From an uncultured Gammaproteobacteria bacterium (GTDB lineage: Bacteria; Pseudomonadota; Gammaproteobacteria; SZUA-229), in the NCBI GenBank assembly GCA_913065105.1, contig CAJXZZ010000010.1, positions 1-52,775 of the forward strand: 52,775 nucleotides of DNA, in the 5' to 3' direction. The notes below the pieces were generated by a model. It saw only the letters and a program-made list of their open reading frames with translations. It ran no database searches and was not told the DNA's origin. Positions within the stretch are counted from its first letter, which is position 1; each line of letters starts with the position of its first letter. Shown piece after piece: positions 12,867 to 16,898 of the stretch. A program made the position numbers and the translations under genes.

Positions 12867-13211
12867 TTACATACCGCTGCCACCGCATTTGCCTTCGCCA
12901 CATTTAGCTTCTTTCTTAGCTTTGTCATCTGCAGATTTACTGTCACCGCATTTGCCTTCTTTGGCTTTGCTGTCGCCGCATTTACCTTCTTTGGCTTTGC
13001 TGTCGCCGCATTTACCTTCTTTAGCTTTGTCTTTGCCTTCACCGCACTTGCCTTCGCCACATTTACCTTCAGCAACTTGCATGTAACCGCCGCTCAGGTT
13101 CTGCATACCAAAAGGGTTTGCATCAGCACTTGCGATTGGTGAAGCAGCCATTGCTGTTAAAAAAGTTGCACCCATTGCAACTGATAGTGATTTTTTCATA
13201 GTGGTTTTCAT
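12867..13211 (-). CDS. hvfA: HvfA-type oxazolone/thioamide copper RiPP precursor
   Basis: The 114-residue precursor starts at the ATG complementary to 13209-13211, with GGAG nine bases upstream; an in-frame start 12 codons earlier has no such site. A Sec signal (hydrophobic core VAMGATFLTAMAA) ends at ASA before Asp30. The mature part is low-complexity, rich in Lys, Glu and Gly, with seven cysteines (51, 56, 68, 78, 88, 104, 109). Six lie in exact EGKCG motifs and one in EAKCG; EGKDK at 58-62 is a decayed motif without cysteine. In Haemophilus HvfA the EGKCG cysteines are converted by HvfBC to copper-binding oxazolone/thioamide pairs. The HvfB and HvfC genes lie downstream, so the same chemistry is expected, with export to the periplasm. 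Confidence 0.92.
   Translation of the reverse strand: MKTTMKKSLSVAMGATFLTAMAASPIASADANPFGMQNLSGGYMQVAEGKCGEGKCGEGKDKAKEGKCGDSKAKEGKCGDSKAKEGKCGDSKSADDKAKKEAKCGEGKCGGSGM
12941..13029 (-). repeat. Three 30-bp tandem repeats within hvfA
   Basis: Three head-to-tail units of 30 bp (12941-12970, 12971-13000, 13001-13029, the last cut short) encode the ten-residue unit KEGKCGDSKA. Units two and three are nearly identical at the DNA level, so the array was probably made by recent duplication or slippage and the motif number may vary between strains. Confidence 0.85.
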
Positions 13212-13339
13212 TAAAATATTCTCCAATAGTTTTTGGTCACGCCTCAAAAGGGGTGGTTGAGTCTACAATGTAGTCGTATTCAAAGACAAGACCTTGAAAT
13301 GTAAGTTCACATACTTTTTAAAATAAGTTGAATTTTTTG

Positions 13340-13771
13340 TTATTTACTTACTAATAACTTTTTAATGCACTCTAAATAGGCCGTTTCATCGGGCATGGTT
13401 TGATTGCGCTGTGCATGCCATAGTGCCTCGCCTAGACATTCCATCATGGCATGTTCTGCATCATGCGGGCCGCCAAATTGAATACATAACTTCTGATAAC
13501 AGTCGTTAATACCTTCAGGGCGATTAGTGCTGATCTGCTCGTGCAGAGCGATGTGCATGCTCATGTGTAGGAAGGGATTGCTCTCACCGGTTTCAGCGGA
13601 GAAGTCTTTATCGACTATCTCTTCATTCTCTAATAGATCATGGTATTCAGGGTGAAGTTCTACGATAGTGGCGACGACTTCCTGCATGGGGTCCATCGGG
13701 AGCTGGTTCTTTTTTAGTTGCCAGCAACTCAGGTAGACCTGGCGTAATTCGTTTCTGTTGTTTCCGAACAT
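13340..13771 (-). CDS. DUF1841 family protein
   Basis: A soluble protein of 143 residues matching the DUF1841 family by its start MFGNNRNELRQVYLSCW, the centre ELHPEYHDLLEN and the histidine-rich helix NPFLHMSMHIALHEQI. The function is unknown. In many gammaproteobacteria this gene follows nth at the end of the rnf operon; here it is on the same strand as nth but 2.5 kb away, with tag, YCII and nlpC genes and repeats in between. The conserved histidines would suit a metal site, but this is inference. Confidence 0.88.
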   Translation of the reverse strand: MFGNNRNELRQVYLSCWQLKKNQLPMDPMQEVVATIVELHPEYHDLLENEEIVDKDFSAETGESNPFLHMSMHIALHEQISTNRPEGINDCYQKLCIQFGGPHDAEHAMMECLGEALWHAQRNQTMPDETAYLECIKKLLVSK

Positions 13772-13849: not shown

Positions 13850-14083
13850 TTAACATTTACACTTTACTAATCATTGAGCTTTGCGGGTCTCGCCCCGCTG
13901 GCGAGTCACTTTTTTTCTACAGCTAAAAAAAGTAACCAAAAAAAGCCGCCCCAACTCGTTTGCCCTCCGGGTACCTGAAACCTCAGTCACTGCCAACGAG
14001 CCCGCCTTGACGCGCTGTCCCTGCGCGCAAGGCTAAATTCGCCGTCCATGGCGAATTTACTCTACCAGCGACTGAGGTTTCAG
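13850..14083 (-). repeat. Structured dispersed repeat, copy A
   Basis: About 234 bases without a gene, homologous to 15353-15600 in the opposite orientation. Read on the minus strand it has an 18-bp outer stem (14066-14083 with 13975-13992, one wobble pair), two hairpins inside it (AAATTCGCC/GGCGAATTT at 14035-14058; a CCTTG..GCGCGC stem), then a T/A hairpin (13908-13916 with 13925-13933), a GC-rich hairpin and a tail ending TTAGTAAAGTGTAA. The pairing is shared with copy B although several stem sequences differ. Confidence 0.85.
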
Positions 14084-14276
14084 CAAACGAAAAGGGGGGA
14101 TTAAAAACAAGCGTTGCAAGGAGAGTTATTTGCCTGTAAAACTTCAGGTTAATTTTTGGTGGTTTATATATGTGATAGATGGATGTCCGCCTATCACTGT
14201 ATTATCGTCATCCACCAAATACACGGTTAGGGCTTGAAATAAAAACTACGGAAATTAAATTGAAAGGAAAAATCCA

Positions 14277-14564
14277 ATGTTTATAGTAGAACTTAAATTT
14301 TCTGACAACAAAGGCTTAGCCAGTCAATTCATGGAAGGTCACAATGAATGGATCAAACGTGGTTTTGATGATGGAGTATTTTTATTGGTCGGTAGTCTCC
14401 AGCCTAATTTGGGCGGTGGAATTATAGCTCATAGTACGACACTCCAAGATCTTCAAAATAGGGTGAATAACGATCCGTTTGTTGTCGAAAATGTTGTGAA
14501 TGCAGAAATCATTGAAATCGCACCTGCAAAAGCTGATGAACGATTGAAGTTTCTTATTGAGTAA
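14277..14564 (+). CDS. YCII-related domain protein
   Basis: A 95-residue protein of the YCII superfamily (small dimeric alpha/beta barrel): MFIVELKF at the start, then HNEWIKRGFDDGVFLLVGSL and the late NDPFVVENVVNAEIIEIAP. YCII proteins of this kind often have a catalytic His-Asp pair; His21 (HNEW) is present. Their substrates are mostly unknown. An AAGGA site lies nine bases upstream of the ATG. It is 32 bases before tag in the same direction and probably co-transcribed. The pair lies between inverted copies of the structured repeat. Confidence 0.85.
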   Translation: MFIVELKFSDNKGLASQFMEGHNEWIKRGFDDGVFLLVGSLQPNLGGGIIAHSTTLQDLQNRVNNDPFVVENVVNAEIIEIAPAKADERLKFLIE

Positions 14565-14596
14565 CTGCGTTATAAATTTATGCAAAGAGTAAATAT

Positions 14597-15214
14597 ATGA
14601 GCACAACAATAAAAGGCTCTGATGGTAAATTACGCTGCAAGTGGTGTGATGCTGCACCGGAGTTTCTTGCCTATCACGATACCGAATGGGGATTCCCTGT
14701 CAGTGATGATCATCGATTGTTTGAAAAAATTTGTTTAGAGAGTTTTCAATCTGGTCTTAGTTGGCGCACTATCCTCAACAAACGCGAGAATTTCCGCTCT
14801 GCCTTTAAAGATTTCGATTTCAACAAAATCGCACGTTTCACCCAGAGCGATATAAATCGTCTTCTTAATGACGAAGGTATCGTTCGTCACCGTGGCAAGA
14901 TCGAGGCGGTTATCAACAACGCAAAACGAGCTAAGGAACTGGTCAAACAAGAAGGTTCGTTAGCTGCCTTTTTTTGGCGTTACGAACCAGGCACTAAACA
15001 AAGTGTTAAACCACAGACTGTATCGACATCGGCTGAGTCGATCTTACTGTCAAAGGATCTAAAAAAACTGGGCTGGAAATTTGTTGGACCCACAACAGCT
15101 TATGCTTTTATACAAGCGATGGGGCTGATCAACGATCATGTTGAAGGTTGCGTAATCAGAGCTGAAGTTGAGGGTGCGCGCAAAAGTTTTAAGCGTCCAT
15201 GTGGTGACAGTTAG
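14597..15214 (+). CDS. tag: DNA-3-methyladenine glycosylase I
   Basis: This base-excision enzyme removes 3-methyladenine from alkylated DNA. The 205-residue length and landmarks fit Tag: RCKWCDAAPEFLAYHDTEWG at the N-terminus with the zinc-ligand Cys and His, FEKICLESFQSGLSWRTIL (substrate pocket), RHRGKIEAVINNA, and the second zinc pair in NDHVEGC near the C-terminus. All expected zinc ligands are present, so it should be functional. It follows the YCII gene closely. Confidence 0.95.
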   Translation: MSTTIKGSDGKLRCKWCDAAPEFLAYHDTEWGFPVSDDHRLFEKICLESFQSGLSWRTILNKRENFRSAFKDFDFNKIARFTQSDINRLLNDEGIVRHRGKIEAVINNAKRAKELVKQEGSLAAFFWRYEPGTKQSVKPQTVSTSAESILLSKDLKKLGWKFVGPTTAYAFIQAMGLINDHVEGCVIRAEVEGARKSFKRPCGDS

Positions 15215-15262
15215 CGTGTTTATATTTATATAGAGCTGTTTCTTTGCCCAACAAAAAGCACG

Positions 15263-15296
15263 GTAGGTCCGATTACGCTGTGCTAATCGGACCTAC
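15263..15296. repeat. 13-bp perfect hairpin after tag
   Basis: GTAGGTCCGATTA (15263-15275) pairs exactly with TAATCGGACCTAC (15284-15296) around an eight-base loop. It follows the tag stop by 48 bases. Lacking a T-tract, it is more like a palindromic intergenic repeat than an intrinsic terminator, though it might still stabilise the tag mRNA end. Confidence 0.7.
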
Positions 15297-15352
15297 ACAC
15301 TGTAAATTATGCTGGTTTTTTAGTTGTTGTTTTTAACTCCCTCTTTCATTTG

Positions 15353-15600
15353 CTGAATTATTTGGTGTTGGTAGAACAAATCCGCCAGGGAAGGCGGATT
15401 TAGCCTTGCGCGCAGGGATAGCGCGTCAAGGCGGGTTCGTAGGCAACATCAAATAATTCAGGCACCCCGAGTGTTTTTCTCGGGGCAAACGAATAAGGGC
15501 GGCCTTTTCTGCTTACTCTTTTGGGCTGTAGCAAAAGAGTGAGTCGCCCGCGAGGCGAGACTCGCAATGGTTAAACTTAGTAAGGTGTAATTGTCTTAAC
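15353..15600 (+). repeat. Structured dispersed repeat, copy B
   Basis: A 248-base intergenic element, inverted relative to copy A. Its outer stem pairs 15353-15370 with 15444-15461 (one G-T wobble). Inside are hairpins AAATCCGCC/GGCGGATTT (15378-15401) and CCTTGCGCGC/GCGCGTCAAGG (15404-15431). After it come CCCCGAG/CTCGGGG, the ACTCTTTTG/CAAAAGAGT hairpin (15515-15540), a GC-rich hairpin and a tail ending TTAGTAAGGTGTAA. Confidence 0.85.
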
Positions 15601-15713
15601 ATTAGTGTTTTTCTCCTTTAATACAATTATCATAATCGTGAGTAGGCTACGTTTTCCTAACGTTCTTTGCACTCTTCACAGTAAATCAGTATTTTTCAGC
15701 TAATATATTTTCT

Positions 15714-16208
15714 ATGTATAAATTAATATCTGTAATTCTCTGTGGAATGCTGTTGATATCCTGCTCATCATCACCCCGCTATGAATCAAAAACACCATCT
15801 GTAAAGATGGCTGTAAAACGTGTCGACCTTAACGACACAGGCAAAGTAAAAACGATTTTAAATCAGCAATATGCTGACTGGCGTTATGTTAAACATCGTA
15901 TGGGTGGTATGTCAAAGAAGGGTATTGATTGTTCGGGTCTCGTATATAAAACCTACCGATCAAAGTTTGGCATCGATGTGCCGCGTTCTACCGAATATCA
16001 ATCACAGGTCGGACAATCAGTAAAAAAGAGTCAATTAAAAGCGGGTGATATGGTGTTTTTTAAAACCGGGTTTAACGCTCGACACGTTGGTATGTATATA
16101 GACAAAGGTGATTTCCTTCATGTTTCTTCCAGTAAGGGTGTGATGATTTCTAATATGAAAGATCCTTACTGGGATGATGCGTACTGGAAATCTCGGCGAC
16201 TTCAATAA
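15714..16208 (+). CDS. NlpC/P60-family lipoprotein endopeptidase
   Basis: A 164-residue lipoprotein with lipobox LISC (Cys about residue 17) and an NlpC/P60 cysteine-peptidase domain over about 45-160. The catalytic Cys is in KGIDCSGLVYKTY, the His in RHVGMYI, and the third polar residue in FLHVSSS. Length and order match E. coli NlpC. Such enzymes cut D-Glu-type or mDap cross-links of peptidoglycan in the periplasm. The ribosome binding site is weak. The stop codon touches the partial repeat copy at 16209. Confidence 0.92.
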   Translation: MYKLISVILCGMLLISCSSSPRYESKTPSVKMAVKRVDLNDTGKVKTILNQQYADWRYVKHRMGGMSKKGIDCSGLVYKTYRSKFGIDVPRSTEYQSQVGQSVKKSQLKAGDMVFFKTGFNARHVGMYIDKGDFLHVSSSKGVMISNMKDPYWDDAYWKSRRLQ

Positions 16209-16264
16209 AGTAACTCGCCCGCGAGGTGAGACTCGCAATATTTAAGGATTAGTAAGGTGTAAAT
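16209..16264 (+). repeat. Structured dispersed repeat, partial copy C
   Basis: Fifty-six bases directly between the stop codons of nlpC and nth match the last part of copy B: GTAACTCGCCCGCGAGG, GAGACTCGCAAT and the tail TTAGTAAGGTGTAA. Only the GC-rich hairpin and tail are present. It may act as the terminator region for the two converging genes. Confidence 0.75.
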
Positions 16265-16265
16265 G

Positions 16266-16898
16266 TCATTCAGTCTTATTTTTAAATTCACACAAATCCT
16301 CAATAAGACAAGACCCGCACCGAGGTTTTCTTGCAACACAAGTATACCTGCCAAGTAAAATTAACCAGTGATGTGCATCGACCATAAACTCATCAGGGAT
16401 AAACTTAACCAGCTTCTTTTCAACTTCCAGTACGTTCTTACCAGGTGCAATTTTAGTTCGATTCGATACGCGAAATATGTGTGTATCGACTGCCATGGTG
16501 GGATGTCCAAACGCGGTGTTACGCACGACGTTAGCCGTTTTCCTGCCGACACCGGGCAGGGCTTCTAACATGGCTTGATCATCGGGCACGATGCTGTTGT
16601 GCTGTTCGACTAAAATCTTGCAGGTCTTGATGATGTTGGCCGCTTTGCTGTTGAACAGGCCGATGGTTTTTATATAACTTTTCAGACCATCCAGGCCAAG
16701 TGCGTAAATCGCCTCGGGGGTATTGGCGACTGGGTAGAGTTTAGCGGTGGCGATGTTGACGCCTTTGTCGGTCGCCTGTGCCGACAGGATAACGGCGATC
16801 AATAATTCAAAGGTGGAACTAAAGTTGAGTTCGGTGGTGGGTTTTGGATTGTCTTTTCGCAGGCGTGAAAATATTTCGTAGCGTTTGTCTTTGTTCAT
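16266..16898 (-). CDS. nth: Endonuclease III
   Basis: A bifunctional DNA glycosylase/AP lyase that removes oxidised pyrimidines. The 210 residues match E. coli Nth in length and numbering: helix-hairpin-helix LPGVGRKTANVV with catalytic Lys120, Asp138 in VDTHIFRV, and the C-terminal 4Fe-4S ligand pattern C-x6-C-x2-C-x5-C (CVARKPRCGSC, then EDLC). It lies 34 bases after rnfE on the same strand, the usual end of the rnf operon in gammaproteobacteria. Confidence 0.97.
   Translation of the reverse strand: MNKDKRYEIFSRLRKDNPKPTTELNFSSTFELLIAVILSAQATDKGVNIATAKLYPVANTPEAIYALGLDGLKSYIKTIGLFNSKAANIIKTCKILVEQHNSIVPDDQAMLEALPGVGRKTANVVRNTAFGHPTMAVDTHIFRVSNRTKIAPGKNVLEVEKKLVKFIPDEFMVDAHHWLILLGRYTCVARKPRCGSCLIEDLCEFKNKTE

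Follow-up and report, generated by a model that had tools for sequence, protein, structure and literature searches.

Outward-facing structured arms with a TwoAYGGAY core and putative CsrA/RsmA-binding loops in a dispersed, probably mobile element of Gammaproteobacteria

In a window of 52,775 nucleotides, which is the whole stretch of DNA that we analysed (contig CAJXZZ010000010.1 of assembly GCA_913065105.1, an uncultured gammaproteobacterium of the GTDB lineage SZUA-229), an element is placed between a DUF1841 gene and nth. It contains two long structured copies, copy A on the minus strand (14083 down to 13850) and copy B on the plus strand (15353-15600), which each fold by themselves, and a third, partial copy next to nth. 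Three genes lie among these copies. We interpret A and B as outward arms of one dispersed element that resembles miniature inverted-repeat transposable elements (MITEs) and is probably mobile. The parts of the arms are listed below, with stems named P0 to P6 and the 3' module named D3; R1 is a covariance model of D3 and R2 a model of the part that corresponds to the RNA family TwoAYGGAY.

13949..14100, minus strand: TwoAYGGAY module of copy A with P0 (P0, P1, the GGA hairpins P2 and P3, P4); Rfam RF01731 with 55.7 bits at 13956-14103; R2 160 bits (copy A among the R2 training sequences)
14066..14083, minus strand: 5' strand of P1 in copy A, CTGAAACCTCAGTCGCTG; 18/18 paired with 13975-13992
13975..13992, minus strand: 3' strand of P1 in copy A, pairing with 14066-14083
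13854..13955, minus strand: D3 module of copy A (P5, P6) and tail ending in GTAAATG; R1 111.5 bits (copy A among the R1 training sequences)
14104..14231, minus strand: inner part of arm A; alignment shows homology with arms C7a and C64b as far as about CCTAAC
15336..15499, plus strand: TwoAYGGAY module of copy B with P0; Rfam RF01731 with 53.0 bits at 15346-15468; R2 183.3 bits (copy B among the R2 training sequences)
15353..15370, plus strand: 5' strand of P1 in copy B, CTGAATTATTTGGTGTTG; 18/18 paired with 15444-15461
15444..15461, plus strand: 3' strand of P1 in copy B, pairing with 15353-15370
15493..15593, plus strand: D3 module of copy B and tail; R1 102 bits (copy B among the R1 training sequences)
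15267..15335, plus strand: inner part of arm B, containing a small palindrome; alignment shows homology with arm C7b
16203..16265, plus strand: third, partial arm with P6 and tail GATTAGTAAGGTGTAAATG, abutting the nth stop codon; blastn 16203-16267; R1 40.9 bits at 16181-16265

Copies A and B share a fold in which the 18-pair stem P1 encloses the hairpins P2 and P3 and is followed by P4, P5, P6 and a tail TTAGTAA.GTGTAA. Minimum free energies on the element strand were -101.2 kcal/mol for A and -111.5 kcal/mol for B, and -88.0 and -93.8 kcal/mol on the opposite strands. All 18 positions of P1 are paired in both copies, with a single wobble each that is G-T on the element strand. The original prediction had described this arrangement from the letters of the two copies, and it held when each copy was folded alone: the pairing counts and the strand of the wobble agree, and the paired changes it quoted for the inner and the third hairpin are present in the sequence. 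Its extent had to be redrawn, because it missed an additional stem P0 outside P1 (TTCGTTTG/CAAACGAA and variants), which was recognised on reading many copies, and because its end at 16264 belongs to the third arm, which consists of D3 only without the TwoAYGGAY part.

The fold was assessed in an alignment of 21 copies (A3), with 14 from the own genome and one each from seven congeneric genomes, against a named structure of 57 pairs. This alignment was made from a previous one (A2) by removing L018 and L020, which did not align, and L023, in which P2 is disrupted, by reversing L010, L011 and L014, and by slightly changing the ends of the stretches. Pairing was found in 96.3% of 1174 cells, and double changes occurred in 35 of the 57 stem pairs and were carried by 127 cells, which are not independent as related copies share changes. 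None of 500 shuffles reached any of five covariation measures, and slid structures paired 34.6-45.1%, a control that leans towards the named structure since this was read from copy B. The sequence of the P1 stems differs strongly between copies, yet 16 to 18 positions are paired in all 21. Double changes were also present in 9 of the 18 predicted pairs of P5 and P6. Among these 21 aligned copies we did not see what the original prediction had named as speaking against it, namely numerous copies in which the stems fail to co-vary.

Departures from pairing were strongly biased towards one strand. In the 5' part of the 21 copies there were 51 G.T and 7 A.C cells besides 37 other mispaired cells; the P1 share of these was 25 G.T, 1 A.C and 16 others. 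In the D3 module of 27 arms we counted 43 G.T and 1 A.C. The latter alignment (A1) comprises arms with ordinary D3 and excludes the variant or interrupted arms C7c, C3a, C33b, C12, C37, C92, C23c and C3e as well as the partial arm at 16203. Equal numbers of both wobbles would be expected if both DNA strands mattered, and the large excess of G.T therefore indicates that one strand folds. Selection on the fold of one strand, as claimed originally, is thus supported by covariation beyond shuffled and slid controls and by wobble ratios of 51:7 and 43:1. The folding strand probably acts as RNA.

The comparison with Rfam that had been proposed for these copies showed that their core is already catalogued. 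Both A and B match the family RF01731 TwoAYGGAY (Rfam 15) above its gathering threshold of 43 bits and over positions 1-168. In both, an outer stem encloses two hairpins with GGA loops. The name-giving loop is followed only in part: P2 of copy A has a fitting ATGGAC and P2 of copy B has AGGGAA, while P3 reads CAGGGAC in A and CAGGGAT in B. All 21 of 21 copies retain GGA in the loops of both P2 and P3, so that the loops here are ANGGAN (P2) and NNGGAN (P3) and not strictly AYGGAY. A 2010 table entry rates TwoAYGGAY as a probable RNA that is unlikely to be cis-regulatory and unlikely to be a riboswitch, with human gut, gamma-proteobacteria and Clostridiales as sources (Weinberg et al. 2010, PMC2864571). 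Rfam assigns RF01731 the type Cis-reg. The core is thus a known RNA family whose function is unproven.

TwoAYGGAY makes up the 5' half of a longer arm, of which D3 is the 3' half. The fold described here differs from the family in extending into P0 and D3, inside the paired arms of a dispersed element. In full copies of the own genome, the same D3 module or a variant of it follows behind the TwoAYGGAY part. D3 consists of GGCGGCC, P5 (with a conserved GCTG in the loop), CTCGCC, P6 (with a GCGA-type loop), about 20 further bases and, often, GTAAATG. The arm end is not sharp, because the 22 tails that we compared are A-rich for tens of bases beyond GTAAAT. D3 is also found behind another 5' module, termed type ii here, with a long variable stem, an inner hairpin and CCCCTGTG/CACAGGGG, and behind inserts, two of which (C92, C98) by eye contain additional ATGGAT hairpins. 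At L033:3383-3709 and L035:3551-3824, the inserts by eye supply P5 or P4 with extra hairpins that have ATGGAT loops. Altered versions of the palindrome GTCCGATTACGCTGTGCTAATCGGAC, which lies at the inner edge of arm B (window 15267-15292), are repeated where B-type arms end on their inner side and close by (L022:4480-4665); the palindrome may represent a separate repeat family.

The form of the P2 loop suggests a candidate function. In all 21 copies it is ANGGAN, closed by a C-G pair. Hexaloops of the form ANGGAX that sit immediately on a stem are described as the high-affinity site for Csr/Rsm proteins (CsrA/RsmE) (PMC4005645), and binding of CsrA by TwoAYGGAY was proposed in 2014 from motif matches (PMC4333381). 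This placement is seen in P2 in all 21 copies and in P3 only in part. We further scanned for loops in arms picked by the D3 pattern alone, hence free of the TwoAYGGAY model, leaving out arms whose start is closer than 180 bases to an end and merging arms with identical sequence between 120 bases upstream and 40 bases downstream. Seventy-eight arms from named genomes contained 37 ANGGAN hexaloop hairpins in sense (in 28 arms) and 3 in antisense, compared with 0.25 in shuffles that preserve single letters only; hexaloops with C, G or T in place of the leading A (C/G/TNGGAN) numbered 5 together. The corresponding counts in 69 congeneric arms were 22 in sense, 1 in antisense and 0.5 in the shuffles, with no C/G/TNGGAN. 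Across 14 stretches of genome G029 the letters of the P2 stem differ and the ANGGAN hexaloop is kept in each, with one arm having a pentaloop. The P2 loop form therefore supports the previous CsrA-binding proposal, and a CsrA/RsmA-mediated RNA function is the best-supported, though unproven, mechanism.

The own genome encodes two CsrA genes, and we compared the occurrence of TwoAYGGAY and CsrA among relatives, in tests that ignore kinship and missing contigs. Within the genus, TwoAYGGAY was present in 8/9 CsrA-positive and 1/9 CsrA-negative genomes (one-sided Fisher test, p 0.0017). In the whole family the numbers were 14/21 and 5/16 (p 0.035), in family genomes at least 90% complete 8/13 and 2/5 (p 0.38), and in the other genera alone 6/12 and 4/7 (p 0.78). 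Several results weigh against CsrA binding. CsrA was not found in G029, the strongest counter-case with 94% completeness and 21 TwoAYGGAY matches, nor in G019, which is 100% complete and has 1 match. P3 keeps GGA in 21/21 copies and the leading A only in some. No ANGGAN hexaloop hairpin was present in any of 21 Cupriavidus arms (e.g. L095, L102, L147), nor in seven whole elements (five from G017, one each from G004 and G008) whose arms are of type ii or do not exceed 30 bits with R2. We rejected the co-occurrence as proof: it is clear only within the genus, is confounded by completeness and kinship, is contradicted by G029 and G019, and counts as weak evidence.

Arms of this kind are widely dispersed. 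A blastn search with copy B gave 25 matches in the own genome, B itself included, and R1 gave 28 D3 matches there. Together with the Rfam scores and the covariation, the number of blastn matches shows that the resemblance of A and B is no coincidence. Among the matches listed, R1 was positive in 36 of 38 family genomes including the own one. After merging of same-strand matches within 150 bp (130 to 123 arms), neighbouring arms at most 7 kb apart in six congeneric genomes (own included) were outward, i.e. divergent, in 31 cases, on the same strand in 3 and inward in 0. Starts of 25 of the 31 outward pairs are 249-670 bp apart. These pairs comprise 62 of the 123 merged arms, the remainder being single or same-strand; for eight of the single arms fetched with flanks, the contig ends 0.2 to 2 kb away. 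Of at least 119 stretches that the D3 pattern matched in named genomes, 80 were used. These came from Pseudomonas, Stutzerimonas, Xanthomonas, Lysobacter, Cupriavidus, Methylophilus, Halothiobacillaceae and others, and R1 showed outward pairs in many of these. R2 gave 28 matches there at E up to 0.01; comparison of the tables places 26 of them on the same strand as a D3 match and no more than 100 bases 5' of it. Outward pairing is not universal, and this speaks against the paired-arm interpretation: some distant genera, e.g. Halothiobacillaceae, have inward (convergent) pairs. Carriage by known plasmids or phages was rejected, as blastn with copy A gave no match in either collection. Our literature searches, which covered open-licence papers, returned no description of a paired-arm architecture of TwoAYGGAY.

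A relative at class level, G045 (L206-L225), contains a related multi-copy element of 0.7-0.8 kb with a TwoAYGGAY core and the left end GTAACTACTCAGC, represented by 86 blastn pieces of which about 30 are long. In copies with a second core, this core is by eye inverted and convergent, an arrangement that differs from that of the own-genome element. Another GTAACTGCTCAG-like start follows within about 15 bases after the right end in 4 of 20 stretches. No gene was seen in the interior, and the element gave no transposase.

The pairing bears on the possibility that the arms are mRNA-end or intergenic processing structures, such as stabilisers or RNase III substrates, which were scattered by past mobility and engage no regulator. 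Strong folds located between genes would be in line with this, and so would a review that describes MITE transcripts forming stable stem-loops and cites nemis repeats as RNase III substrates (PMC10969869). It is not favoured because neighbouring arms form outward inverted pairs and are not placed one per gene end, and conservation extends past the stems to the loop letters ANGGAN and GCGA; we regard it as quite improbable. Of the three options that the original prediction had left side by side, the mRNA end is thus disfavoured, and non-coding RNA and hairpin-based mobile element each seem to hold in part.

The genes at the locus are the following.

13340-13771: DUF1841 gene
14277..14564, plus strand: gene for a 95-amino-acid protein between the arms, YciI-like by eye only; no Pfam match at 1e-3; homologue beside tag in the relative G009
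14597..15214, plus strand: tag, 3-methyladenine DNA glycosylase, between the arms (PF03352, E 1.2e-69)
15714..16208, plus strand: NlpC/P60 gene, located after copy B and before the partial third arm (PF00877, E 1.7e-31)
16266-16898: nth

The DUF1841 gene is present in 11 congeners and adjoined by nth in 8 of these. In five of the eight the gap between them is short (about 10, 95, 177, 226 and 230 bp) and without R1 match. In G008 and G004 the interval is about 730 and 800 bp with another gene by eye, and in G001 the site is occupied by a different element of 590 bp with 45-bp perfect terminal repeats. In G010 an arm begins and the contig ends, and nth is outside the fetched stretch in G005 and G009. 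A second arm pair of the own genome, C7a and C7b, resembles the present one, with 89.6% identity between A and C7a and 96.4% between B and C7b, and encloses DNA unrelated to the A-B interior; homology breaks off abruptly some 130 and 70 bases past the modules. Arm C64b has the same inner boundary as arm A. The pair to which it belongs as the right arm (contig C64, L024:3689-5874) encloses a gene for a Tae4-type amidase of the type VI secretion system (PF14113) and two small frames, one possibly the immunity gene of the amidase, and is flanked by DsbD-like and thioredoxin-like genes, both by eye. On the other side of the DUF1841 gene from the element, window 12867-13247 encodes a short protein with many KCGEGKC-type repeats beside a DUF692-like frame (by eye) and a DoxX-like gene; together they may resemble a bufferin-type cluster.

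These observations might also be explained by A and B being independent insertions that flank two resident genes, without any carriage of genes. Six congeners have a tag homologue and 4 have an nlpC homologue in other places, and R1 matched nothing in the stretches fetched around them (at most 1.5 kb on each side), which argues for independent insertion and against transport by the element; carriage by the arms is therefore something that we infer. Near-identical arms of the same left and right types around other DNA in the same genome, and the lack of the whole interval between DUF1841 and nth in five relatives, argue the other way, and we consider independent insertion doubtful.

Some observations count against mobility of the element. 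No transposase or recombinase was tied to it in a search for Y2 (IS91) enzymes, Y1/RAYT and other transposases not being searched. Neither the own genome nor G004, which has the most D3 matches among the matches listed, contains an IS91-type Y2 transposase. IS91 was rejected as mobiliser, since PF04986 is present in only 5 of 18 congeneric genomes and missing from these two. In G011, some 640 bases separate a D3 arm from a broken IS91-type transposase gene (L226:5929-7193). The flanks of 18 pairs showed no clear target duplication by eye, the exact end being blurred by the A-rich tail. The inner boundary CTAAC is reminiscent of an integron attC site; no GTT partner was found by eye and this is not claimed.

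The main rival to an RNA function is that the fold acts as single-stranded DNA, with the hairpin arms being recognition ends for a single-strand transposase (IS200/IS605, REP/RAYT or IS91) and the covariation resulting from selection for mobility. Arms in inverted pairs as in REPINs, for which compensatory changes in the hairpins are reported (PMC3116915), and the 45-bp terminal repeats of the G001 element would fit, and the element-strand bias would also arise if only that DNA strand folds. However, a DNA-end function does not specially predict that the ANGGAN loop is kept across genera despite the changing stem, and the own genome and G004 lack a Y2 transposase, in a search that did not extend to Y1/RAYT. 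We judge this role unlikely.

Comparison with known systems places the element between several of them. With MITEs (PMC10969869) it shares numerous short non-coding copies, terminal inverted repeats in small copies and pairs around genes; MITEs have been described at both ends of an integron (PMC3934969). Terminal inverted repeats of a short, non-coding, multi-copy element are seen in the 590-bp element of G001 and in the short outward pairs, and the longer A-B pair has ends that are similar, not identical. Unlike MITEs, it shows a conserved one-strand fold inside each arm, no target duplication (18 pairs, by eye) and no parent transposase (among Y2 transposases, the only type searched). REPINs or REP doublets similarly have two inverted structured units per dispersed unit and compensatory hairpin changes (PMC3116915), but the units here are about 250 nt with several stems, compared with 20-40 bp given for REPs (PMC3733652). 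The decoy RNAs of CsrA/RsmA (CsrB, CsrC, RsmX, RsmY, RsmZ) share ANGGAN hexaloops on stems and more than one GGA hairpin per RNA; the difference here is two predicted sites per full arm in many dispersed copies.

Taken as a whole, we lean towards A and B being the outward arms of one non-autonomous, mobile-like element, with each arm specifying a structured RNA whose loops are predicted to bind CsrA/RsmA. Each arm would specify one RNA that consists, from the 5' end, of P0, P1 enclosing the two GGA hairpins (TwoAYGGAY), P4, D3 (P5, P6) and the A-rich tail. The arms would be transcribed, and the element would have moved in the past. P1 might serve as a sequence-free clamp that presents P2 and P3, and the ANGGAN loop of P2, less so that of P3, might bind CsrA/RsmA, with the RNA titrating or recruiting the regulator. 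A wider proposition, a widespread proteobacterial mobile element with its own putative CsrA/RsmA-binding RNA that seeds a genome with numerous sites for the regulator and ferries host genes such as a DNA-repair glycosylase and a type VI secretion amidase between exchangeable arms, is speculative and on balance improbable.

The paired-arm setting explains the many occurrences of TwoAYGGAY in one genome and gives a fuller boundary of the family, with P0, D3 and the tail. It also offers a case of a stem that is free to change letter by letter while keeping its pairing, in many copies within one genome. In this setting, the previous proposal that CsrA binds becomes directly testable in laboratory pseudomonads. 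If the wider proposition is true, a mobile element would tune the post-transcriptional regulator of its host.

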